NCBI RefSeq assembly: GCF_013141865.1 | Contig: NZ_RCST01000001.1 | Coordinates: 1,550,001-1,614,000, forward strand | Source of the DNA: Methylomonas sp. ZR1 | GTDB lineage: Bacteria > Pseudomonadota > Gammaproteobacteria > Methylococcales > Methylomonadaceae | DNA: 64,000 nt | Direction: 5' to 3' | Shown: positions 9,161 through 21,607 of the stretch, in pieces | How the letters are laid out: the number at the start of each line of letters is the position of its first letter | How positions within the stretch are numbered: the first letter of the stretch is position 1 | Position numbers and translations under genes: made by a program | Notes under the pieces: model-generated | Told to the model about the DNA's origin: nothing | The model's input: the letters and a program-made list of their open reading frames with translations, nothing else | Database searches by the model: none

Positions 9161-10333
9161 TCAATCGCCGGACACTGTATCGACGAGCAATATTCGTTCA
9201 CTATCCAGGCGCAAAGACAGGGTTTTGCACAGCAAGCTGGTTTCAAAATCCATGTAGCGCTCGGAAGTGACGACCCGATTGCGGTCGCCGCAGTTTTCCA
9301 ATGCCAGCAATTGAAAGAAATAAGGGCGCCAGGACCAGTTAAAGCCTATTTTGCGCGGATCGGTAAACCATTGGTTTTCTTTGAAATTAAAATCCGGCGA
9401 AATCTGGTCGCCGTGGTTGTTGCACAAATAAAAACGAATCACGCCGCTATCGGTAAAATTCCAGCTGACCAGTTCATTCAAGTTAAAGTCGTCCTGCAAG
9501 GTTTCGGCCAGCTTGTAAATCAAGGTTTTGGTGGTGTTAATGGCGCTGACTTTCTTTTGCACCTTAACCAGTGTGTTTTTCAAAAATTTAGTGCGCAATG
9601 AAGCGATATGTTGTTCGTAAAGCTCGGCATGCTGAAAATCGGCTTCGGCTTTGGCAAACAAAAACCCCTGCATGAATTGCGCGCCGCAGTTCAAACTAAA
9701 TAAAAACGCTTCGTCCGATTCCACGCCTTCACAAATAATCCGGCAGCCGGTGCGTTTACCCAGCCGCGAGATCATATGAATAATGTCGCCGGCGATGCCG
9801 CCCTTGGTGGCCAGCTTGAACAGCCGCATATCGATTTTGATGATGTCGGGTTGAATGGCGATCACCCGTTCCAGTTGCGAGGCGCCGGCGCCGAAATCGC
9901 CGATAGCCACACTCAAGCCGTGTTTGCGGTAGCGCTGTACGATTTGTTTTAACTTTTGCGGATCGACATGCGCATTGGAAATTTCCACGATGATGCGTCG
10001 CCGGTCGATATTCAACTCGTCCAACATCCGTAGCGTGGGTAGCGTGTTTAATTGGCGCAGATTTTCTATCCAGGCCGCGGAAATATTCAGCGCCAGATAG
10101 CTTTGCGTATCGGCCAATTCCGAGAATTTTTCCAGGGCCTGCCAGCGTACCTGCCTGTCCAGTTCGATACGGGTTTTGGCATCAACCTCGGCGGAAGAGA
10201 AGAGGGCGCCGGCGGAAACCACTTTGCCTTTGTCGTCGTATTGGCGGGCCAGGGCTTCGTAGCCGACGATTTTGCCGCTGGCCACCGAAATAATGGGTTG
10301 GAAATACGGGAATAACTGTGTTTTAGCTTGCAT
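9161..10333 (-). CDS. EAL-domain protein with YkuI-like sensory C-terminus
   Basis: A 390-residue protein starting at ATG 10333 behind an AAGGGA site; an in-frame TTG at 10351 is the alternative. The EAL domain spans about residues 10-245: GYEALAR, LALNIS, IIVEIS, IIKIDMRL and ICEGVES are all present. The usual DDFGTG motif reads GDFGAG, so the first of two metal-binding aspartates is Gly and c-di-GMP phosphodiesterase activity may be weak or lost. The C-terminal part resembles the YkuI_C sensory domain. It begins 19 bases after nasA, so it is probably the last gene of the nitrate operon. Confidence 0.85.
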   Translation of the reverse strand: MQAKTQLFPYFQPIISVASGKIVGYEALARQYDDKGKVVSAGALFSSAEVDAKTRIELDRQVRWQALEKFSELADTQSYLALNISAAWIENLRQLNTLPTLRMLDELNIDRRRIIVEISNAHVDPQKLKQIVQRYRKHGLSVAIGDFGAGASQLERVIAIQPDIIKIDMRLFKLATKGGIAGDIIHMISRLGKRTGCRIICEGVESDEAFLFSLNCGAQFMQGFLFAKAEADFQHAELYEQHIASLRTKFLKNTLVKVQKKVSAINTTKTLIYKLAETLQDDFNLNELVSWNFTDSGVIRFYLCNNHGDQISPDFNFKENQWFTDPRKIGFNWSWRPYFFQLLALENCGDRNRVVTSERYMDFETSLLCKTLSLRLDSERILLVDTVSGD

Positions 10334-10352
10334 CGTCCCTTGGGCTATCAAT

Positions 10353-13031
10353 TTAACTGGGTTTGGGTAAAAACTCCTTCAACTCCGCGACGCAGGAACC
10401 GCAACCGCTACCGGCGCTCAAACAGGCGCTGATGTCGGCGACGCTTTGCAGTTGCTGGGTTTGCACCGCGTGTCGGATGGTTTTTTCGCCCACATTGAAA
10501 CACGAACAGACGATTCGGCCAATATCGGCTTCACCTTTTGGCGGCAGTCCGCTCAGCAAGCTCAGGCGCTCGGCTCGGCTCAACTCATTTTTAGCGAATA
10601 AACTGCCCAGCCAGCCAGGCTCGGGCAGCTCGCAATCCGGTCCGACGCACAAACAGGCTTGTAATTCGCGATCCGGTAAATAAGCGGTACGGTAATAGCC
10701 GGCTTGTTGGTCGCTGTATTCCAGCCAGCAGTTATCATCATCAATATGTCTTGTGTCAGCGAGCAGCGCGCGGCTCCAGGCCCGCCAGTCCTTGCCGGGT
10801 TCGGTAGACGCTAACTCGTAACGAAAATAGCGGTCGCCGCGCACACTGACTTGATACTCGGCCCCGCCAATTTGTAAGGGACGGCGCGACAAAATAGTGG
10901 CATACCAACGTGACGGCCAGGCATGGATTGTGGCCGGTGTTTGCTTGCTTTCCGGTTGCCCGGAATAGGGATCGACCACCGGATTGACCACGGCGCCCAT
11001 GCGGCCGTGGCTGCTGAGTTGTTCGGTCCAGTGCATAGGTACGAACAGACTGCCGATTTGTTGCCCCGGATTGAGATCGACGCGGGCCAGCATACTGCCC
11101 CACCGGCTTTGGATCTGCGCCAGACTGCGCGCGCTTAAGCCGAGGCGTTCAGCGTCGGCGGGGTTTATCTCGACGAAAGGTTCCGGGCGGTGCGCGTTTA
11201 ATTTGGCGGCCAGACTGGTGCGGGTCATCGTGTGCCATTGGTCGCGCAGGCGGCCGGTATTCAGCGTAAACGGATAATCGTTATCCGGCGCGTTAACAGG
11301 CGGACGCGGGGTAATCGGGATGAAGCGGGCTTTACGATTGCTTGTGTAGTACTGGCCGTCAGTAAACATTCTGGCTGCGCCTGCGCTTTGCTGGTGGGTG
11401 ACCGGCCATTGCACCGGTTGCAGCGCGTCATAACCTTGCCCGTCCAAGTGGACAAAGGCCGATAAATTAAAATCGCGTAACTGATGCTCGTCATCGTTTT
11501 CGAAGGCCGACAGCGCGGCGTGTTCACGAAAAATGTCGGCGCTGGATTGGTAATTAAACGCATCGCTAAACCCCATGCGCTGAGCGACTTGGCTGATGAT
11601 CCACCAGTCGTGTTTGGCTTCGCCGGAGGCCGGAAACAAGGGCCGTTGCCGAGAGATGCGCCGCTCCAGATTGGTGACGGTGCCGTCTTTCTCGCTCCAG
11701 CCGGTGGCCGGCAGCAGCACATGAGCCAACTCGGCGGTATCGGTGTTGGCGATGCAATCGGATACCACCACCAATTCGCATTGTTGCAAGGCACGTTTCA
11801 CTTTGTCGGCGTCCGGCATCGACACCACCGGATTGGTCGCCATAATCCATACGGCCTTGATTTGACCAGCGGCAATGGCGTCGAACATCGCTACGGCCTT
11901 CAAACCTTGTTTGTCGGCGACTTTGTCACTGCCCCAAAAGCGGCCGACTCTATCGACGTGTTCCGGGTTTTCCAGGTCCATATGCGCAGCCAAGGTGTTT
12001 GCCAAGCCGCCCACTTCGCGGCCGCCCATCGCGTTAGGTTGACCAGTGAAGGAAAACGGCCCCATGCCTGGCTTGCCGATGCGGCCAGTGGCGAGGTGGC
12101 AGTTGATGATGGCATTGCATTTATCCGAACCGGAGCTGGACTGGTTGATGCCCTGCGAATAAACCGTGACGGTTTTCTCGGTGCCGGCAAACCAGTCGAA
12201 CAGTGTGGCGACTGCTTCGCTAGGCAAGCCACAGCCTGCGGCGACCTGCTCGATACTGCCGGCGGTTTTCACAGCTTCTTGCAATGCGGCGTCGAAACCT
12301 TCGGTATGTCTATCGATATAAGTCTGATCGATCCGGCCGTTTTGCGCTAAATAAGCCAAAATGCCGTTGAACAATAGCGCATCCATGCCCGGTTTAACGG
12401 GCAGATGCAAATCGGCGATGTCGCAACTGGCCGTGCTGCGCGGATCGATCACCACAATCTTTAAATTTGGGTTGTTTTCCTTAGCCTTGCGAATGCGTTG
12501 AAAGGCAATCGGGTGGCACCAGGCGGCATTGGAGCCCATCAGTAAAATCAACTCGGCCAGTTCCAGGTCTTCGTAATTGCAAGGCACGGTATCGGCGCCA
12601 AACGCGCGTTTGTAGCCCACTACCGCCGAAGACATGCACAAACGGGAGTTGGTATCGATATTGGCGGTGCCGATGAAGCCTTTCATCAATTTGTTGGCGA
12701 CGTAGTAATCCTCGGTCAGCAATTGGCCTGAGACATAAAACGCCACCGCTTCGGGGCCGTGCTGCGCAATAATGGTGTTAAAGCGTTCTGCGACATGATC
12801 TAAAGCTGACGCCCAATCGACTTGTTTCCCTTGAATGCTGGGATAAAGCAGGCGGTTTTCCAGCGACACGGTATCGCCCAGCGTCGCGCCTTTGGAGCAA
12901 AGTCTGCCGAAATTGGCTGGGTGCTTACTGTCGCCTTTGATGCTGACCCGGTGTGTCGCGTGGTCTTCTATCGTGGCTTCGATGCCGCAGCCGACGCCGC
13001 AATAAGGACAAGTGGTTTTGATGGTGTTCAT
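10353..13031 (-). CDS. nasA: Assimilatory nitrate reductase catalytic subunit NasA
   Basis: An 892-residue molybdenum bis-MGD enzyme that reduces nitrate to nitrite in the cytoplasm. Four cysteines at residues 8, 11, 15 and 45 (CPYCGVGC and CSKG) bind the N-terminal [4Fe-4S] cluster. The molybdopterin oxidoreductase body follows, with a dinucleotide-binding domain around residue 590 onward. The last 55 or so residues form a BFD-like [2Fe-2S] domain (CSCFNVG and SGCGSC), as in the Klebsiella NasA architecture. No Tat signal is present, which fits an assimilatory enzyme. It follows the nasB-like gene by 12 bases. Confidence 0.96.
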   Translation of the reverse strand: MNTIKTTCPYCGVGCGIEATIEDHATHRVSIKGDSKHPANFGRLCSKGATLGDTVSLENRLLYPSIQGKQVDWASALDHVAERFNTIIAQHGPEAVAFYVSGQLLTEDYYVANKLMKGFIGTANIDTNSRLCMSSAVVGYKRAFGADTVPCNYEDLELAELILLMGSNAAWCHPIAFQRIRKAKENNPNLKIVVIDPRSTASCDIADLHLPVKPGMDALLFNGILAYLAQNGRIDQTYIDRHTEGFDAALQEAVKTAGSIEQVAAGCGLPSEAVATLFDWFAGTEKTVTVYSQGINQSSSGSDKCNAIINCHLATGRIGKPGMGPFSFTGQPNAMGGREVGGLANTLAAHMDLENPEHVDRVGRFWGSDKVADKQGLKAVAMFDAIAAGQIKAVWIMATNPVVSMPDADKVKRALQQCELVVVSDCIANTDTAELAHVLLPATGWSEKDGTVTNLERRISRQRPLFPASGEAKHDWWIISQVAQRMGFSDAFNYQSSADIFREHAALSAFENDDEHQLRDFNLSAFVHLDGQGYDALQPVQWPVTHQQSAGAARMFTDGQYYTSNRKARFIPITPRPPVNAPDNDYPFTLNTGRLRDQWHTMTRTSLAAKLNAHRPEPFVEINPADAERLGLSARSLAQIQSRWGSMLARVDLNPGQQIGSLFVPMHWTEQLSSHGRMGAVVNPVVDPYSGQPESKQTPATIHAWPSRWYATILSRRPLQIGGAEYQVSVRGDRYFRYELASTEPGKDWRAWSRALLADTRHIDDDNCWLEYSDQQAGYYRTAYLPDRELQACLCVGPDCELPEPGWLGSLFAKNELSRAERLSLLSGLPPKGEADIGRIVCSCFNVGEKTIRHAVQTQQLQSVADISACLSAGSGCGSCVAELKEFLPKPS

Positions 13032-13043
13032 GGGTAAAGGAAT

Positions 13044-14267
13044 TTAAGCCGCGCGCGCGAGCGGGATTCTGCCGAACATCAAGCGGTCGCGGATCGCGGC
13101 AATCGGTGTGCTTTCTTTAACCAAATTCAGATACCAGGCACTGTCGCTGGTGTCGCCGTACAAAATAACGCCGACGACGACGTCGCCGCGCAGGACAATT
13201 TTTTTATAGATGCCCAGGCCGTGGTCAATCAACTGCAAAATCTGGCATTCGCTGTCGCCTTCGAAATCGCCCACCGAGAATAAATCGATGCCGGTGACTT
13301 TCAACATCGTCGCGGACGATAAGGTTTTAAATTGGCTGTCGACTTTACCCGCCAGTTGTTGCGCGCAGACTTTGGCCTGTTCGTAGACCGGCGCGACCAA
13401 ACCGAACAGTTCGCCCCGATACTGCACGCATTCGCCGACCGAGAATATCGCCGGGTCGCTAGTCTGCATGCCGTCGTCGACTACGATGCCGTGCTGACAC
13501 GCCAGACCGATGCGTTTAGCCAGACTGATATTGGGCTTAATGCCGGTGGACATAATCAGCATGTCGGCCGGTAATACGCTGCCGTTACTCAAAGTCACCG
13601 CGCTGATATGCCCGTCCTGACTGTCTATGCGTTGGATGGTGGTACCCAGATGAAACTGAATGCCTTTATCCGCCAATTGCCGTTGTAAAAACGCCGCAGC
13701 TTTACCATCCAATTGCCGGTTCAACAAATGGCCGGCACGGTTGATGACGCTGACTTGCATACCGCGTTGCAATAAGCCGTTGGCGGCTTCCAGACCCAGT
13801 AAACCACCGCCCAGAATGACCGCATGTCGTTTGCTGGCGGATTTTTTGATCATGGTTTCCACGTCGGCGATGTCTCTAAAGCCCAATACGCCTTCGACGT
13901 CGCGGCCCGGTATGTCCAGCATCAGCGGCAAGGAACCGGTGGCGATCAACAGTTTGTCGTAAAACGCGCAGGTGCCGTCGTGGGCGATGACACAGCGGCG
14001 TTCGCGATCAACATCGACAACCGCTTTGTCCGGTCCGCAATACAAGGTCACGCGGTTTTTTAGATACCAATCGAAATCGTGAATCATGATGTCGGCAACG
14101 CTTTTGGCGCCGAACAACACAGGTGTCAGCATGATGCGATTGTAGTTGCCGTGCGGCTCGGCGCCGAACACGGTAATGTCGTAGCGATCCGGTACGGTTT
14201 GAATCAATTCGTCAACGGTGCGCATGCCGGCCATGCCATTGCCTATCACTACCAATTTGAGTTTCAT
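13044..14267 (-). CDS. NasB-like FAD/NAD(P) electron-transfer subunit of nitrate reductase
   Basis: A 407-residue flavoprotein starting at ATG 14267; the longer frame upstream only covers the end of the porin gene. It has an FAD-binding VVIGNGMAGM at residues 5-14, a pyridine-nucleotide site VILGGGLLGLEAANG near 150, and a third FAD contact SVGECVQYRG near 280. It matches the N-terminal half of NirB but lacks the sirohaem part. Next to nasA it most likely delivers NAD(P)H electrons to nitrate reductase, as NasB does in Bacillus. No nitrite reductase gene is in the window. Confidence 0.85.
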   Translation of the reverse strand: MKLKLVVIGNGMAGMRTVDELIQTVPDRYDITVFGAEPHGNYNRIMLTPVLFGAKSVADIMIHDFDWYLKNRVTLYCGPDKAVVDVDRERRCVIAHDGTCAFYDKLLIATGSLPLMLDIPGRDVEGVLGFRDIADVETMIKKSASKRHAVILGGGLLGLEAANGLLQRGMQVSVINRAGHLLNRQLDGKAAAFLQRQLADKGIQFHLGTTIQRIDSQDGHISAVTLSNGSVLPADMLIMSTGIKPNISLAKRIGLACQHGIVVDDGMQTSDPAIFSVGECVQYRGELFGLVAPVYEQAKVCAQQLAGKVDSQFKTLSSATMLKVTGIDLFSVGDFEGDSECQILQLIDHGLGIYKKIVLRGDVVVGVILYGDTSDSAWYLNLVKESTPIAAIRDRLMFGRIPLARAA

Positions 14268-14344
14268 GATGTTGTCGGTACTATTTGCGAAGATCGGTGG
14301 GAAATTGGACGCAAACTGTGCAAAACAGTTTGCGCCGCTGCTGC

Positions 14345-15637
14345 CTAGAAGCTGACGTTGCCTTGCATCCAAATCACTTGGGTGTCCGGGAACGCCGGGT
14401 TATCGCTGTTAAAGTTCGCGTACTTGGCTAACAGCGAGTAATGTTTGCCAAACTTTTTCAGGGCCTGAAAATCCCATTCCTTACCGTATTCAATTTTGCC
14501 GGTATCGTCTTTAAAGTCGTGATAGACGCCGGTAATGATCAAGCTGTCGTTCATCGCTTTGTAGCTGGCGGTGGCGAAGACGTCGCGGATACCATTAGCC
14601 GGTGTAGTCAAAAATAAATCCGCCCACCCCTGGAAAGCGTGATTGGTGCCCAGCGGGGTTTGGAAAGATTTGCCGGCTCCGTAGCCATTTAGCTGCTCCA
14701 CGGCACCTGACACGGTCAGATTGTAAGCACTGGCCCCCGCCATCAGATTGAAGCGGTCGGCCTGATAGTGGTTGGGGTTGTCGCCGTAGTCCGATTGTTT
14801 GCTCCATTCGGCCGTGTAGATGGCATTGACAGTGTCAAAAAACTGCGGCGATTTGCCATCGAAGCGCAAGCCGTAGGTTTGTGAGGAGTTAGCGTAGTTA
14901 GCGCGTTCGCGGTAATCCAGCCAGTATCCGTAACCGATCAGGTTGCCCCAGTCATTAATCTTGTAATTCAGGTTTAAAAACGGCGCGTTTATCGAATGCG
15001 TTTCGCCGAATATGTTTTGGATGTGGTCTATATAGCCGACGTTTGCTGTCAGCCCGAACAAGGTCTGATTATTGTGGGTGATCAGAATCGAGTCATAGGT
15101 CATCTCCATCTGCCGCCAGCCGACGTTACCGATGAAGCGGTCGTCGTCCAATTTGATGCGTTGCCGGCCGACTTTGATCAGGGTGTCGGCGATGCCTTTG
15201 TAGCTGATCCAGAATTGATTCAGCTCGTTACGGGCCGGATCGGCAATGACGGCATAGTTGCGGTCACGGTTCGAGGTAGTACCGCCGCGGTCGTAGTCGG
15301 CTTGAGCCGCGTAGAGGCCTTCGTATTCCGCGTAACCTTGGAAATCGTGAAAAACCGGCGTCAGGAAACCCAGCCGCAGGCGCACCGTATTGGCGTTGGC
15401 GGTTTCCACCGGCTGGCCGCCCATATTGGCGGGTTTACGAACAGAGTTGTCTTTATCGACATTCTCCCAGCGGTAATTCAAATCCATTTTTACCGCGCCG
15501 TTGCTGCCGTAATGGTAGAAATTCAAGGCGTCTTCCACCTCTTTGGTAATGTCGGCGGCGGCCGGTAGGCTGAAGAAGGTGAGTGATAATAGTGTCGCCG
15601 GTAACGTGCCGGTTGGACGTTTGAGTGTTTGCGGCAT
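14345..15637 (-). CDS. Outer-membrane beta-barrel porin of the alginate-export type
   Basis: A 430-residue secreted protein with a signal peptide ending PAAADI near residue 29. The body alternates polar and aromatic residues as in beta strands and ends in Phe (IWMQGNVSF), the usual outer-membrane assembly signal. The pattern resembles the alginate_exp porin family. Its place between nrtCD and the nasB-like gene suggests it lets nitrate cross the outer membrane; no binding residues can be named from the sequence. A GGGG stretch six bases upstream may serve as the ribosome-binding site. Confidence 0.82.
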   Translation of the reverse strand: MPQTLKRPTGTLPATLLSLTFFSLPAAADITKEVEDALNFYHYGSNGAVKMDLNYRWENVDKDNSVRKPANMGGQPVETANANTVRLRLGFLTPVFHDFQGYAEYEGLYAAQADYDRGGTTSNRDRNYAVIADPARNELNQFWISYKGIADTLIKVGRQRIKLDDDRFIGNVGWRQMEMTYDSILITHNNQTLFGLTANVGYIDHIQNIFGETHSINAPFLNLNYKINDWGNLIGYGYWLDYRERANYANSSQTYGLRFDGKSPQFFDTVNAIYTAEWSKQSDYGDNPNHYQADRFNLMAGASAYNLTVSGAVEQLNGYGAGKSFQTPLGTNHAFQGWADLFLTTPANGIRDVFATASYKAMNDSLIITGVYHDFKDDTGKIEYGKEWDFQALKKFGKHYSLLAKYANFNSDNPAFPDTQVIWMQGNVSF

Positions 15638-15668: not shown

Positions 15669-17429
15669 TTAATGGGTGTGATCGCATTCGGACAGGAAGG
15701 TCAGCAAGCTCTCCCGGTACTTGTAGTAATCCGGATGCTCCAGCAGGGCCTTGCGAGTACGCGGCCGAGGCAGGTCGATTTCTTGAATTTTGCCGATTTT
15801 GGCGTGCGGGCCGTTGGTCATCATCACCACTCTGTCAGCCAATAGAATGGCTTCGTCGACGTCGTGGGTCACGACGATCGCGGTGACGTGGGTGCGTTCC
15901 CAGACTTCCATCAATACTTCCTGCAATTCCCAACGGGTCAACGAATCCAGCATACCGAACGGTTCGTCCAGTAGCAGTAATTTTGGCGACAAGGCAAAGG
16001 CGCGGGCAATACCGACGCGCTGGCGCATGCCGTTGGACATGTCCCCGGCTTTTTTAAACATCGCATCGGCCAGACCGACCCGGGTCAGGTAGTATTCGAC
16101 GATGTCCTCGCGTTCGTCTTGCGAGGCATGTGGGTACACTTTATCCACGCCCAGCATCACGTTTTCGAAGGCGGTCAGCCAGGGAAACAGGCTAGGAGCC
16201 TGAAACACCACGCCGCGATCCGGACCTGCGCCGCTGATTTCCCGGTTATCCAAAATAATGCCGCCTTCGGAAATTTCGTTCAGGCCGGCGGTCATCGACA
16301 AAACCGTGGATTTACCGCAACCGGAGTGGCCGATAATGGAAATGAATTCGCCTTTCTTCATTTTTAGATCGAAGCCGTCCACCACTTTCACGGTACTGTT
16401 GCCGTCCGGGGTAGGGTAGATTTTGGACAGATTCGAGAATTCCAGATAGCGGGCCTTGCCCAGATCGCGGGCGCTGGGTTTCAGCGCCGAGGTATCCAGC
16501 TTCCAGTCGTTACTGGTATTGGGGCGGACATCCGGCAGTTTGAGCTTGTCGCCAGCGTCGGCTTGGGCTTTTTCCATGCCGATATTCATCAAATAGCGGG
16601 TGATTTCCGCGCGCAGGCGTTTGAATTCATCGTTATGGTTTAAAGCGGTGCGGTCGCGCGGCCGCTCCAGGTTGACCGTAAAGGACGGGCCAAAGCTGGC
16701 ATCCGGGCCGGGATTGAGTGGAATGACCCGGTCGGCCATGTAAATGGCTTCATCGACGTCGTTGGTAATCAAGATGACAGTCTTTTTATCCTGTTCCCAA
16801 ATTTGCAGAATTTCGTCTTGCAAGTTGCCGCGGGTCAGCGCATCCAGGGCGCTGAGCGGTTCGTCCAGCAGCAAAATATCCGGGTTGGCGGCCAGCGCCC
16901 GGGCCACGTTAACACGCTGACGCATGCCGCCTGATAACTCGGCGGGTTTTTTGTCCATCGCCCGGCCGAGGTTCACCATTTTGACGTACTTCTCGGTATG
17001 CGCGCGGCGTTGTTCCGGCGTCCAGTCCTTGAAGATCGCATCTACCGCCAGCGCCACGTTTTCGTAAACGGTTAGCCAGGGCATCAAGGAATAGTTTTGA
17101 AACACCACGCCGCGATCCGGGCCGGGTTCGGTGATGGGCTGGCCTTGTTTCAATAGTTCGCCGCTGTCGGCATGGATTAAACCCGCAATCATCGATACCA
17201 AGGTGGTTTTGCCGCTGCCGGAAAAACCGACAATGGCGATAAACTCGCCTTCGCGAATATCCAGATTAATGTCTCTGAGGATGGAGGTTTTGTCTTTGCC
17301 TTCTCCATAGGATTTACAGACATTTTTTAACTCTACTAACGGCTTATACGCATCGTTGGCGGGAACGGAAGACATGGCGGATTGTTTGTGCATGGAAAGT
17401 TCGATGATTTTGGCTTGGGCGGCGCTCAT
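15669..17429 (-). CDS. Fused nitrate ABC transporter ATPase (NrtC-NrtD)
   Basis: A 586-residue protein with two complete ABC ATPase domains in one chain. The first (residues about 30-260) has Walker [10 protein letters not shown], signature LSGGMRQR, Walker [12 protein letters not shown], and ITNDVDEAI where the switch His is expected. The second (about 325-560) has [29 protein letters not shown] and the normal VTHDVDEAI. Cyanobacteria encode NrtC and NrtD separately; here they are joined, and the NrtA-like C-terminal domain of cyanobacterial NrtC is missing. It starts 10 bases after nrtB. Confidence 0.92.
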
Positions 17430-17439
17430 GACGGTATCC

Positions 17440-18453
17440 TCAGATTTTTTGGAACGAGAACAGGTTTTGTAACGAGTGCATTACCCGGTCGAGAATGAAG
17501 CCGATAATACCGATGGTAAAGACCGCCACCATGATCCTGCTCAAGGAATTGGAACTGCCGTTTTGGAATTCGTCCCAGACGAATTTGCCCAATCCTGGGT
17601 TTTGCGCCAGCATCTCGGCAGCGATCAACACCATCCAACCCACGCCCAAGGATAGGCGCATCCCGGTAAAGATATAAGGTAAAGCCGAAGGCAGAATGAT
17701 GCGTTTGATTTGTGTGGCCCAATCCAGTCTTAACACTTTACCGACGTTGACCAAGTCGCGGTCTATCGATGACACACCCACGGCGGTGTTGATCAGCGTT
17801 GGCCATAAAGAGCATAAAGTCACGGTGATGGCCGAGGTGACGAACGATTTGGCGAACCAGGAATCGTCGTCAGTGACATAGATGGCGCTCACCACCAAGG
17901 TGACGATGGGCAACCAGGCCAGCGGCGATACCGGTTTGAAGATTTGAATCAACGGGTTAAACGCAGTATTCAACACCGGACTCATGCCGCAGATGATACC
18001 TAGAGGCACGGCAATCAGCGTGGCGATGATAAAGCCGGCGAATACGGTGCGCAGGCTGGTAAATATTTGGTCCAGATAAGTCGGTTTGCCGGTGTAGGGG
18101 CGGGGCTTGATTTCCGCTTTGGGGTCTTCGGCCAACTTTTCTTTATTCCGCAATTCCTGGCGTTCGTAAAACTCGGCCATTTTGGTTTTTTCCGCATAGT
18201 GTTCAGTCACCAAACCGCTGACTTCCGACCAGACTGCGACCGGGCCGGGAATGGCGCCCAAACTGGTGTTGATGCGTGCGGCAGTGACGCTCCAAAATCC
18301 TAAAAACAAGATGAAAGCGATGATGGGCACGCCCATGACCAACCATAACTGGCGCATTTGCTGGGCAGGATTTTCACCGGCGGCGATTTTGACTAAGGGT
18401 ACGAACCAGGTCAGGCCGGTGATGTTAAAGAATTTGATCAATGTATTAGTCAT
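17440..18453 (-). CDS. nrtB: Nitrate ABC transporter permease NrtB
   Basis: A 337-residue inner-membrane protein of the BPD_transp_1 type. A first membrane segment near residue 40 is followed by a charged loop of about 60 residues (Lys/Glu-rich, residues 85-130). Five further segments follow, with the EAA-like cytoplasmic loop around residue 245 (a Val/Asp-rich stretch ending [11 protein letters not shown]). It forms the channel for nitrate (perhaps also nitrite) taken from NrtA and is driven by the fused ATPase encoded next. Confidence 0.93.
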
Positions 18454-18544: not shown

Positions 18545-19939
18545 TTAGTCGACAATCTTGCCGCCGGAGACGGTTTGTTTGCCTTTCAAGCCAATCGGAA
18601 ATTTGGCTAGATAATCGTTAGGTTTGTTGGCATCGAACGGAATTTTGTCGATGAAAAAGTTTTGTGAAGGCTTGATGCCGGTGTCGGCCGGAAAATCTTC
18701 CGCTTTGGCTTTACCCTCGGCCACCAATTCTTTCGCCGCAGCCAAATATATATCGGGGCGATAAACTTTTTTCGCGGTGTCGAGATACCAGTTATCCGGT
18801 TTTTGCTCGGCGATCATGCCCCAGCGCCGTAATTGCGTCAGGTACCAAACCGCACTGCTGTAAGAGGGATAGCTGGCGCCGTGGCGAAAGAAGGTGTTGA
18901 AGTCGGGCAGGGAGCGTTTGTCGCCTTTTTCGTATTCAAAGGTGCCGTTCATGCTGGCCGCCAGTACTTCAACGTCGGCGCCCACATATTGTTTTTGCGA
19001 CAACATTTCAATCGCTTCCTTACGGTTTTTGTTGCTTTCGGCATCCAGCCAGATCGAAGCGCGGATCAAGGCTTTAGTGACTGCCAGATAGGTGTTGGGA
19101 TATTTCTCGGCCCAAGAGCTGGTCACGCCGAACACTTTTTCCGGAGTGTCTTTCCACAATTCCTCGTCGGTGATCACCGGTACACCGATGCCTTTAAATA
19201 CCGCTTGCTGGTTCCACGGCTCGCCGACGCAATAGCCGAAGATGGTGCCGGACTCCAGCGTGGCCGGCATTTGCGGCGGCGGCGTGACCGACAACAAAGC
19301 ATCGGCGCTGATCTGGCCGGAAATGTCTTGCGGTGGCGCATAGTAGCCGGGATTAATGCCGCCAGCCGCCAGCCAATAGCGCAGTTTCAGGTTGTGGGAA
19401 CCGGCCGGAAAAGTCATCGCCATATTGAATGGCTTGCCTTCGGCTTTATATTTGTCCACTACCGGTTTCAGATAATCCGCCTTAATCGGATGCACCGGTT
19501 TGCCGCCCTCCATTGGCACATTGGCTTTCATTTGTTTCCAGATGTCGTTGGATACGGTGATGGCATTGCCGTTGAAGCCCATGCTGAAGGCAGTCACGAT
19601 GTCGGCCTTGGTGCCGAAGCCGATGCTGGCCGCTAACGGTGCCGGCGCCAGCATGTGCGAACCGTCCAGCTCGCCGTTCACAACCCGGTCCATCACCACT
19701 TTCCAATTGGCTTGTGCTTCCAGTTGCACAAACAGGCCTTCCTCTTCAAAAAAACCTTTTTCCGCAGCCACCGCCAGCGGGGCCATGTCGGTCAATTTGA
19801 TAAAACCGAACTTCAAATCTTCTTTTTCCAGTTTCCCGGCGGCGAAGCTGTGGTTGGAAAAGCCTAATATGCCCAGCGCAACCACCGAGCTGAAAGCGGC
19901 GGCAAGTGTCTTCGGGGTGAAAATGCGGTTCTGTTTCAT
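18545..19939 (-). CDS. nrtA: Nitrate-binding periplasmic protein NrtA
   Basis: A 464-residue protein of the NrtA/CmpA family. A signal peptide covers about the first 35 residues (ending NHSFAAGK); no lipobox Cys is seen, so it is probably soluble in the periplasm or held by its leader. Family-typical stretches include KFGFIKLTDMAPLAVA, GYCVGEPWNQQAV and LSVTPPPQMPATL. ATG 19939 is chosen because the signal peptide begins there and an AGGA site precedes it. It is the first gene of the nitrate operon and sits just below a regulated leader. Confidence 0.94.
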   Translation of the reverse strand: MKQNRIFTPKTLAAAFSSVVALGILGFSNHSFAAGKLEKEDLKFGFIKLTDMAPLAVAAEKGFFEEEGLFVQLEAQANWKVVMDRVVNGELDGSHMLAPAPLAASIGFGTKADIVTAFSMGFNGNAITVSNDIWKQMKANVPMEGGKPVHPIKADYLKPVVDKYKAEGKPFNMAMTFPAGSHNLKLRYWLAAGGINPGYYAPPQDISGQISADALLSVTPPPQMPATLESGTIFGYCVGEPWNQQAVFKGIGVPVITDEELWKDTPEKVFGVTSSWAEKYPNTYLAVTKALIRASIWLDAESNKNRKEAIEMLSQKQYVGADVEVLAASMNGTFEYEKGDKRSLPDFNTFFRHGASYPSYSSAVWYLTQLRRWGMIAEQKPDNWYLDTAKKVYRPDIYLAAAKELVAEGKAKAEDFPADTGIKPSQNFFIDKIPFDANKPNDYLAKFPIGLKGKQTVSGGKIVD

Positions 19940-19970
19940 GTCGGTTCCTGTCAATTGAGAAAAACGGGCC

Positions 19971-20024
19971 AAAAAAAAGGCGTCTATGCCCGACTTGTTT
20001 GCAAGCCTGACAGTAGACGCCTTT
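19971..20024 (-). terminator. Intrinsic terminator in the nrtA leader (attenuator)
   Basis: Read on the minus strand, AAAGGCGTCTA (20024-20014) pairs perfectly with TAGACGCCTTT (19986-19976). The 27-base loop can itself pair in part, and a T-run follows. It lies between the promoter and the nrtA start, so it must be read through for the operon to be expressed. Confidence 0.9.
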
Positions 20025-20033
20025 GTCTTTAGT

Positions 20034-20079
20034 GCTCAACAGTGAGCGGGGTTTGGGTTTACCACTCCTACACTGGAGT
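20034..20079 (-). promoter_or_regulatory. Two hexaloop hairpins, ANTAR-type antiterminator target
   Basis: On the minus strand the first hairpin is ACTCC-AGTGTA-GGAGT (20079-20064) and the second GCTC-ACTGTT-GAGC (20047-20034). Both loops have six bases with A at position 1 and G at position 4. That is the signature of RNA targets bound by ANTAR antiterminators such as NasR, known from Klebsiella nasF. The terminator hairpin starts 10 bases below the second hairpin. The regulator gene is not in the window. Confidence 0.8.
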
Positions 20080-20092
20080 ATTGCTGCTTACT

Positions 20093-20109
20093 AAGCAATG
20101 CTGATGCCA
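20093..20109 (-). promoter_or_regulatory. Sigma-54 (-24/-12) promoter of the nitrate operon
   Basis: The minus strand reads TGGCAT-CAGCA-TTGCTT, matching TGGCAC-N5-TTGC with the GG and GC elements at the required spacing. Transcription would start near 20083, so both hexaloop hairpins and the terminator fall within the leader RNA. A sigma-70-like TATAAT also lies at 20152-20147 but has no convincing -35. Confidence 0.8.
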
Positions 20110-20560
20110 GTTTAATGACTCTTGTGATAACTATATGTAAAAAACCATTATAAACAGTGTGTTACACCTATTTTTGGTGAGTCTGTTTTTAGAGAAATTT
20201 GCGGGCGCATCTTGGCATGCAGAAAAATCATGCACTCTATTGATTCGGAAGTGCTTTTTTTGCACATGCGTGGTGCGCACCGGAATGGGGAGGCTCGCCG
20301 AGACATGCGGAAGAATTAGCGGTATTGCTAAGGTCGCGGGTCCGCGATGCAGGATTGGCTGGGCCGATATGAGCTTCCCGGTGGCTGGATAGGCATTTTG
20401 CCAGGTGTAAACCTGCCTGATAATGGCAATATTTCATTTAGGCGCACGAGCGAAGCAAATTGATACAATTCGCAGCAATGATGCTCGCCGTCTATGAAAC
20501 AGAATAGGATGCAGCGAGTTTTAGGTAGACGAGTCAATCGAATTTAAGCTGGGGCGGATT
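20110..20560. other. Intergenic region between the nitrate operon and a divergent gene
   Basis: No gene is supported here. The region holds the NtrC-like site, a CACC-N7-GGTG dyad near 20164-20180, an AT-rich stretch and the presumed promoter of the divergent gene at 20561. A GGCGGATT stretch about 10 bases before that gene's ATG contains a GGCGGA that could act in ribosome binding. Confidence 0.5.
20261..20277 (-). promoter_or_regulatory. NtrC-like enhancer site upstream of the nitrate operon
   Basis: TGCAC-N7-GTGCG fits the dyad of NtrC sites (TGCAC-N7-GTGCA) with one mismatch. It lies about 180-195 bases above the predicted start, a normal enhancer distance for a sigma-54 promoter. A further palindrome GGTGCGCACC overlaps its right half. 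Confidence 0.5.
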
Positions 20561-21103
20561 ATGAAATACATCGTAAAACAAATTGCCGATGACTTTATCT
20601 TTGAAGAAATGGAGCAGGCCAGGAAACAGTTTGTCGAGGCGCTGAATTACACCATGGAAAGCGCTACGATCTTTTTCGATAAAAATCCCACCAATCCGCT
20701 GGATTTTTTTATTGCCTACGATTTTCAGCAAAAGCACGGCGACCCTGTGGTCTATGGGTTTAATTTGCGGGATGAAATGATCCGAATTTTTAGTTTGGAC
20801 GACAACAAAACCCATTCATCTCAATCAGCCCTGGCAATCAGCCAACAGCTAAAAAAACTGGCTGAGGAACTTGAAGAGCGTTACGACCCGGAACCCACGA
20901 AGACCATCGCCGAAACCCAAGAGAAAAAAGACACGCAATATGCCAGCAGCATCAATCGGTCTTACCGTGAGGTACTCAGAGAAGCGAAAGAACACGACCG
21001 AGCCGAGCAATTGCGGAAAGCCGAGGCTGCGGCTGCGGCGGCAGACGAAGGCTATCAACGCCATACGATTTTACTGGGCAGTAAGAGTGCGGCTAAATCC
21101 TAA
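20561..21103 (+). CDS. Hypothetical protein, 180 residues
   Basis: I do not recognise this protein. It has no signal peptide or membrane segment. The first 90 residues look like a compact alpha/beta domain (FFIAYDFQQKHGDPVVYGFN). Residues 100-165 are charged and Ala/Glu-rich, probably a long helix or coiled coil. It is divergent from the nitrate operon, but nothing in its sequence links it to nitrogen metabolism. Codon use resembles the neighbouring genes. Confidence 0.65.
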   Translation: MKYIVKQIADDFIFEEMEQARKQFVEALNYTMESATIFFDKNPTNPLDFFIAYDFQQKHGDPVVYGFNLRDEMIRIFSLDDNKTHSSQSALAISQQLKKLAEELEERYDPEPTKTIAETQEKKDTQYASSINRSYREVLREAKEHDRAEQLRKAEAAAAAADEGYQRHTILLGSKSAAKS

Positions 21104-21430
21104 GCCCGGCCCGTAAATATCGTCGCTCCCGCGCAGTCCGACATTCACGGGGCAGCGCTTAGCTGCCATATCACACTGCTAAGCCAATTTCCGGCTGACA
21201 AGACCAAAACGGTATTTTGAAAACGCCAGACAAGCTCACTGCGGATGCCTTGATTAGAGAGGGATCCGCAGCAGGGTTAATGCTACCATTGAAACGTGTT
21301 TAAGCAAGTGCTTTGCACTTTGCAGTACCCAATACCCCCATCAAACCAGAGAGGAACAGCCAATCCGTTGACTGTGCGTGGACTTGTCCTCACCGGTTCG
21401 AGTGTTGTGTTTGGCTAGTATGCTCTGCCT
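21104..21430. other. Gap with a REP-type fragment, no gene seen
   Basis: Positions 21109-21136 (AAATATCGTCGCTCCCGCGCAG) match in reverse the repeat at 38695-38722, so this is a partial interspersed repeat. The rest shows no reading frame with gene-like features. A GGTTCGAGTG stretch near 21399 recalls a tRNA T-loop, but no cloverleaf can be built. Confidence 0.5.
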
Positions 21431-21607
21431 TTACACCGACAACATCCAGCCGTTTGCATAAAAAATCTCAAACTCCCGGAACAGCACGAAGAATCTGCCG
21501 AATTTGATTTTGCCTGTCCCGGCTTCATTCAGATCGGCGACGGTGCCGTCGCCATACCAGTTACTGTGGATGACATCGCCGATTTGTATTTTTTCGTAGG
21601 TTTTCAT
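21431..21607 (-). CDS. Small hypothetical protein, 58 residues
   Basis: Starts at ATG 21607 with AGGGGCG just upstream. The chain reads as a small beta-rich domain: IGDVIHSNWYGDGTVADL, then KIKFGRFFVLFREFEIFY. This recalls short Tudor/SH3-like folds, but I cannot name a family. It has no signal peptide and stands alone between two unrelated units. Confidence 0.5.
   Translation of the reverse strand: MKTYEKIQIGDVIHSNWYGDGTVADLNEAGTGKIKFGRFFVLFREFEIFYANGWMLSV

Follow-up and report, generated by a model that had tools for sequence, protein, structure and literature searches.

A nitrate gene run preceded by a structured leader

The window analysed here is a 64,000-nucleotide stretch of the Methylomonas sp. 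ZR1 genome (positions 1550001–1614000 of 5.18 Mb), and its minus strand carries a run of nitrate transport and reduction genes, presumably expressed as one transcript, nrtA-nrtB-nrtCD-porin-nasB-nasC-EAL (Table 1). The nrtA frame opens with the ATG at 19939; over the best segment, its product shares 91 and 94% identity with the corresponding proteins of two Methylomonas records. An Alginate_exp porin gene sits within the run; a related porin gene in genome G152 (L268) itself bears the RNA described below.

Table 1. Features of the nrtA leader and the gene run behind it (window coordinates).
Feature	Position	Strand	Remark
NtrC-like dyad CGCACCACGCATGTGCA	20261..20277	-	11/14 letters of consensus
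Sigma-54-type promoter TGGCATCAGCATTGC (-24/-12)	20095..20109	-	GG-N10-GC kept
HP1, ACTCC-AGTGTA-GGAGT, P1-like hexaloop hairpin	20064..20079	-	both-side changes in four pairs
HP2, GCTC-ACTGTT-GAGC, second P1-like hexaloop hairpin	20034..20047	-	loop G4 in 23/23 leaders having HP2
HP3 (P2), AGAC-AAAGGC-GTCT, putative antiterminator hairpin	20015..20028	-	A1 and G4 in 24/24 leaders
Intrinsic terminator, 11-bp outer stem and T8	19971..20024	-	89.2% of cells paired, 24 leaders
nrtA, nitrate-type ABC transporter binding protein, apparent signal peptide	18545..19939	-	PF13379
nrtB, ABC permease	17440..18453	-	TIGR01183 best match, below cut-off
nrtCD, two-domain ABC ATPase	15669..17429	-	TIGR01184 above cut-off
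Porin-like protein	14345..15637	-	PF13372 Alginate_exp, 32.1 bits
nasB-type FAD reductase (NirB N-terminal type)	13044..14372	-	domain/family matches
nasC-type molybdopterin nitrate reductase with BFD domain	10353..13031	-	no NCBIfam cut-off reached
EAL-YkuI_C protein, last of run	9161..10351	-	PF00563 and PF10388

Transcription of the leader would start near 20083, about 186 bases below the NtrC-like dyad. An earlier note on this DNA had read from the letters a sigma-54-type promoter, two hairpins with A1 and G4 in their six-base loops, an 11-bp terminator with a T-run and an NtrC-like dyad about 185 bases upstream, and each of these was recovered at the positions in Table 1. The note had called the leader complete with two hairpins; both are present, and a third, HP3, had been overlooked. 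Neither of the two named hairpins overlaps the terminator, so by themselves they make no switch. The loop and 3′ strand of HP3 lie inside the 5′ arm of the terminator (20024–20014, pairing with 19986–19976 over 11 pairs, with the T-run reaching 19971), and HP3 therefore supplies the switch.

Work on ANTAR targets describes tandem hexaloops with A1 and G4 (PMC3369931, PMC3369936, PMC7496416), closed in the NasR SELEX by a C:G pair (PMC7496416). In the eut, amiE and nasF leaders, the hairpin P2 serves as antiterminator and sits where the 5′ side of the terminator begins (PMC3369931, Ramesh et al. 2012; PMC3369936, Stewart and van Tilbeurgh 2012). All three hexaloops of the window (AGTGTA, ACTGTT and AAAGGC) carry A1 and G4 and are closed by C:G, with three hairpins rather than two, and HP3 takes the place of P2 at the terminator. 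The HP2–HP3 linker measures 5 nt in the window when a 4-bp HP3 stem is counted, and 4–7 nt with a 3-bp stem across the 24 leaders compared below (L027 lacking HP2).

Conservation, covariation and search models

We compared 24 leaders, namely that of the window and those of 26 methanotroph-type loci (L015–L040, taken from 80 nrtA-relative loci) minus L023, L031 and L036, in which a scripted search found no such leader; L027 is the single leader without HP2, and L016 and L038 are misaligned at HP1. The window leader folds at −43 kcal/mol with the terminator formed (z −5.14; 0 of 200 shuffles were as good). The computed fold closes A1:U6 of HP2 and leaves a four-base loop, so the six-base loop is deduced from relatives; A1 occurs together with U6 in 14 of the 23 HP2 loops.

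Across the 24 leaders, the three hairpins are paired in 91.0% of 324 cells, and pairing falls to 25–49% when the hairpin partners are slid. Both sides are changed in 22 cells, a number reached by none of 500 shuffles, and the covariation score is 0.228 versus 0.158 for shuffled and 0.016–0.088 for slid structures. No excess over shuffles was seen for two of the five measures taken on the whole structure, namely how many pairs show a both-side change (162/500) and how many further pair types occur (455/500). Changes on both sides affect four pairs in HP1, one in HP2 and none in HP3, the last because HP3 hardly varies. A1 and G4 are found in 19 and 20 of 24 HP1 loops, in 21 and 23 of 23 HP2 loops, and in every HP3 loop. 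The terminator showed no covariation above shuffles in the 24 leaders, though its cells are largely paired (Table 1).

A covariance model of 19 leaders that left out the window and its three nearest relatives, L015–L017 (model R2), scores 42.1 bits (E 7.5e-8) on the window leader, with the next match in the window at 14.4 bits (E 0.11). Rfam models gave no match at their gathering scores in the window or in 20 relatives' loci. Model R1, built from 23 leaders and favouring three-hairpin ones, finds the nrtA leader strongly in its own genome (55 bits); its other matches there, at 20.6 bits and below, were not accepted, three having been checked for reading frames. The string GACAAAGRCGTC was discarded as a lone marker: with at most one mismatch it occurs 103 times in the genome, its reversed control equally often, and long reading frames run across both of the further exact copies that were opened (L008 and L009). 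A simple promoter/terminator scan of 19700–20600, with a terminator loop limit of 8, flagged nothing, and a tRNA scan of 19000–21500 found none.

At the promoter, TGGCA and TGC are invariant in 24/24 leaders. TGGCAY-N5-TTGC occurs twice in the window versus 0.32 expected, and two other spacings or looser sigma-54 forms occur once each (0.97 and 0.28 expected); taken by itself, the sigma-54 pattern hardly exceeds chance. A dyad matching at least 10 of 14 letters of the NtrC consensus lies within 300 bases upstream in 19 of the 24 leaders, versus 1.6 expected from mononucleotide shuffles, and one NtrC gene in the genome exceeds the curated cut-off (733 versus 558.6 bits). The GG-N10-GC core, the upstream dyad and an NtrC gene are all present, and we infer that sigma-54 and NtrC are used at the nrtA leader. 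The earlier note's view is thereby supported that in a methanotroph a full set of nitrate transport and reduction genes follows a sigma-54/NtrC-type promoter and an attenuator of ANTAR type.

A probable NasT-type regulator without a detected NasS

The genome holds one ANTAR match (PF03861, 67.1 bits, L002 9396–9983), a receiver-ANTAR protein (PF00072 and PF03861) of NasT type without a NIT domain. Its gene lies directly behind that of a NarK transporter and divergent from nirB, the identities of NirB and NarK being confirmed by NCBIfam. The genome-wide look for a NasR- or NasT-like protein proposed in the earlier note therefore yields a NasT, and the NasR that the note had in mind as regulator drops out. 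Klebsiella-type control by a nitrate-binding NasR has the same order of promoter and leader on its side, and a NasR-type NIT-ANTAR protein does occur in one family genome (L102 409–1671, G093). The sole ANTAR match of the own genome, however, lacks a NIT domain, which contradicts such control unless a gene is absent from the genome record, and we consider it barely tenable.

The receiver aspartate of this NasT is replaced by asparagine, and NasS was not detected in the genome: of its four PF13379 places, one is nrtA and the other three encode transporter-type proteins with transporter genes as neighbours, and a search with the NasS-like neighbour of nasT at L108 matched NrtA alone. A divergent NasS could have escaped this search. 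Of the features of a NasS-NasT system, the genome thus has the receiver-ANTAR NasT and shows neither a NasS partner nor an acidic receiver residue, the latter being a pattern derived in the present analysis and not a published one.

Proteins at least 68% identical to the L108 neighbour were found in 6 of 201 family genomes (G150, G064, G014, G041, G164 and G082), the NasS label here resting on position and fold family, as no family model names NasS. The remaining matches, 34–48% identical, are read as NrtA, because such a match follows closely behind 105 of the RNA sites. A NasS-type protein thus accompanies ANTAR in 6 of 113 genomes, which suggests that NasT without NasS (orphan NasT) is the rule in the sampled family; it appears to occur in other Gammaproteobacteria as well.

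Distribution and targets of the RNA

R1 matched 111 of the 201 family genomes and PF03861 matched 113, with both present in 107, RNA only in 4, ANTAR only in 6 and neither in 84 (Fisher p 1e-43, uncorrected for kinship). In half of the six ANTAR-only genomes (G016, G066 and G068), all ANTAR matches score 45–53 bits. A second receiver-ANTAR class (45–54 bits), with an intact receiver Asp and located beside PAS/kinase-like genes (L291–L294), was seen in the matches opened in G078, G014, G007 and G001. One further locus (L295 2268–2657) encodes a 130-aa ANTAR-type protein without a receiver, next to, as judged by eye, a glutamine-synthetase-like gene and a NIT-like membrane protein. Of 201 genomes sampled across the order, 86 gave a match, in each case in a row of the host family.

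The 111 genomes contain 144 RNA sites; 105 of them have an nrtA match within the 800 bases that follow, and 5 precede an EAL gene. The other 34, assigned via the longest reading frame behind P2, comprise 16 sites at nirB, 4 at nrtA, 2 at narK, 5 at chemoreceptors (MCP domain), and one each at a porin (Alginate_exp) and a sensor (NIT-HAMP-PAS; L269 963–2999, genome G042), with 5 left unassigned; NirB and NarK were confirmed by NCBIfam for the own genome and one example each, the rest by similarity. A match in L280, among the five unassigned, is probably false.

The nirB leaders of Methylomonas (L002 minus strand, ~7730–7600; L187–L204) show a sigma-54-like site, a P2 of the form GGAC-AAAGGY-GTCC and a terminator. 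A conserved AAGTCT..AGACTT-type hairpin without an A1/G4 hexaloop replaces P1 in 16 of 18 relatives. The R1 search misses the nirB leader of the own genome, despite the P2 and terminator there.

The make-up of the nrtA leader, its conservation, its covariation and its co-occurrence with ANTAR genes are thus established computationally. An attenuator that is constitutive or otherwise controlled, its hexaloops being no ANTAR site, would draw on the chance recurrence of short motifs; the conservation of loops and stems, the match of the held-out model and the RNA/ANTAR co-occurrence all speak against it, and we rate it as very improbable.

Two kinds of NasT and the middle hairpin

We compared the phospho-acceptor column of the receiver in 32 distinct methanotroph NasT proteins from the loci opened, a subset of the 113 genomes (the NIT-ANTAR protein of L102 left out). 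The three NasS-linked proteins have D, and the 29 others N (27) or Q (2). In other Gammaproteobacteria, covered by 20 genomes reached via nrtA loci, the residue is D or E in 9/9 where a second NasS/NrtA-type protein is present, and D in 1/9 (L311) where there is one such protein, the rest having V, V, K, T, N, A, I and I; five of 23 ANTAR places were left out, four for long frames (L306, L308, L314 and L318) and L319 for lack of a NasT match. Combined, an acidic receiver residue occurs in 12/12 NasT with NasS versus 1/38 without (kinship not corrected). On a tree of these 50 proteins, the NasS label needs 2 changes versus 10.9 for shuffled labels, so few events could explain the whole receiver pattern. 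The tree does not show orphan NasT as a single clade, with 2 label changes on it and one in just 12% of the bootstrap trees.

All six NasS-carrying genomes have leaders that keep the HP1 and P2 loops and lack the HP2 hexaloop, its position being taken (by eye) by a stem with a shorter loop of 3 or 5 bases. Among the other leaders, 73 of 78 carry a six-base HP2 loop whose fourth base is G and whose first is A or G, and in 9 of those 73 HP1 is the failing hairpin. The association of HP2 with NasS status (p 1e-6) is not corrected for kinship and draws on three genera only, and transfer of whole clusters is possible; R1 favours three-hairpin leaders, and NasS status was not checked individually for the genomes behind L015–L040. 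The comparison started from 86 distinct RNA hits, of which L280 and a wrong-strand hit of L015 were dropped. The natural reading of this pattern would be that HP1 and P2 serve NasS-linked NasT, that HP2 and P2 serve orphan NasT, and that HP1 is optional. Outside the family, as judged by eye, most leaders have two hexaloops whichever NasT is present, and a few (e.g. L041, L042 and L093) have three hairpins; the third hairpin is therefore not strictly confined to these methanotrophs.

Relation to known leaders

The NasT/nalA leader of Pseudomonas nirBD is a closer known model than Klebsiella nasF. The review PMC12830290 gives it a sigma-54/NtrC start, NasT as ANTAR antiterminator and a position ahead of nitrate/nitrite genes, to which the window leader corresponds in type; the window leader differs in having three hexaloops and no detected NasS. 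Work on Klebsiella nasF (PMC3369936, PMC7496416) describes P1 and P2 hexaloops with A1 and G4 and a P2 overlapping the terminator, whereas the protein here is receiver-ANTAR and not NIT-ANTAR, and the leader has an additional hexaloop hairpin. The NasS-NasT systems of Paracoccus, Azotobacter and Pseudomonas (PMC3795266, PMC5424462) share a NasT-type protein, a nitrate assimilation target and leader hairpins with the present case, in which NasS was not detected and the receiver acid is lost. The targets of Enterococcus EutV likewise have tandem hexaloops with P2 against the terminator (PMC3369931); EutV differs in its two hairpins, phosphorylated regulator and ethanolamine genes.

Two Rfam families resemble the window leader while scoring it far below their cut-offs. 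The consensus of P11 (RF00625) shares a promoter-like part and GACAAAGGCGUC with it (21.9 bits, cut-off 70), and that of narK RNA (RF03032), whose Rfam model has no base pairs, contains a promoter-like GGCaCA..UUGCU and ACGACAAAGACGUCGC, a P2-like hexaloop (18.8 bits, cut-off 43.2). P11 in turn looks similar to the nalA leader. Both consensus sequences hold the promoter-like part and a GACAAAGRCGUC hexaloop, which suggests that P11 and narK RNA may both be NasT leaders with the same kind of switch. Among the literature matches listed, none settled the P11–nalA link or explained narK RNA, and none described an ANTAR leader or NasT in methanotrophs or an orphan NasT, most subscription papers being outside the search.

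A proposed attenuator and what may set it

We propose, with a probability of roughly 0.85, that the leader is a NasT-type ANTAR transcription attenuator acting through the orphan NasT. Under nitrogen limitation, the NtrC/sigma-54 promoter would start the leader RNA, and by default the terminator would fold and stop transcription before nrtA. By analogy with known ANTAR leaders, the orphan NasT whose gene lies behind narK would bind, as a dimer, two adjacent A1/G4 hexaloops, most likely HP2 and HP3; with HP3 held by NasT, the terminator could not pair, and transcription would read through from nrtA to the EAL gene. HP1 would be an extra P1-like site, conferring higher affinity or an alternative register. 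The proposal is supported by the hairpin anatomy, covariation, held-out model match and ANTAR co-occurrence given above, by the single ANTAR gene beside narK and nirB, by the NtrC gene and NtrC-like dyads, and by at least 18 further RNA sites that precede nirB or narK, besides the 105 at nrtA. Points against it are the scant variation of HP3, which leaves covariation little to act on, the computed fold, in which the terminator forms and HP2 closes to a four-base loop, the 10 genomes discordant for RNA and ANTAR, and the nirB leaders without an A1/G4 partner hairpin (16/18 Methylomonas relatives).

With no NasS detected and the receiver aspartate gone, the activity of NasT may depend on how much of it is present or on a ligand. 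In Paracoccus, NasT is held by NasS until nitrate arrives, and loss of NasS abolishes nitrate control (PMC3795266, PMC5424462), the nasS mutant expressing nas without nitrate (PMC5424462). Orphan NasT could therefore act by amount alone, and with no NasS detected in this genome, nitrate control of the present leader is likewise unproved. The same RNA switch would then work without sensing nitrate: NtrC/sigma-54 would drive narK-nasT as well as the leader, and read-through would follow the level of free NasT in a feed-forward loop for nitrogen limitation. Fitting this are the undetected NasS, the Asp-to-Asn change, the Paracoccus mutant and a sigma-54-type site close upstream of the narK-nasT ATG, present in the own genome and, as judged by eye, shared by 15 of 18 Methylomonas relatives; a pseudo-receiver could, however, bind a ligand or another partner, and a divergent NasS could have been missed. 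We regard regulation by NasT amount as a serious contender, if somewhat short of even odds.

In another version, c-di-GMP would gate orphan NasT, and the EAL protein encoded at the end of the nas run would stand in for NasS by lowering or relaying c-di-GMP. Relatives of this gene lie directly behind nasT in genera g3, g15, g25 and g29, the RNA precedes EAL at 5 of 144 sites, and c-di-GMP is reported to impair P. putida NasT (review PMC12830290). Yet 56 of 113 ANTAR genomes have no EAL at E 1e-60 (at most 9 candidates scored per genome), 17 of 74 EAL genomes have no ANTAR, the gene stands among unrelated genes in several genera, and the window protein, one of 12 such among 47 aligned, has GDFG for DDFG and may not be an enzyme. 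Gating by c-di-GMP therefore appears unlikely. EAL as a universal NasT partner is ruled out by distribution. EAL-YkuI_C relatives (L125–L174) were seen behind nasT or beside chemoreceptor genes.

More tentatively, and with the odds leaning against it, orphan NasT acting through the proposed attenuator might represent a separate regulatory class that has lost NasS as well as the receiver acid and takes a different input, directly via the pseudo-receiver or via c-di-GMP and the linked EAL protein. In these methanotrophs it would work by antitermination on an enlarged, three-hexaloop RNA and would tie chemoreceptor, NIT-sensor and EAL genes to nitrate assimilation (nrt-nas, nirB and narK).

The leader thus offers a well-delimited candidate RNA switch for nitrate use in methanotrophs, one open to experiment. 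It raises the question of what NasT responds to once the nitrate sensor and the phosphorylation site are both gone, and this leader, like those of relatives, could serve directly as a reporter for the orphan NasT signal.
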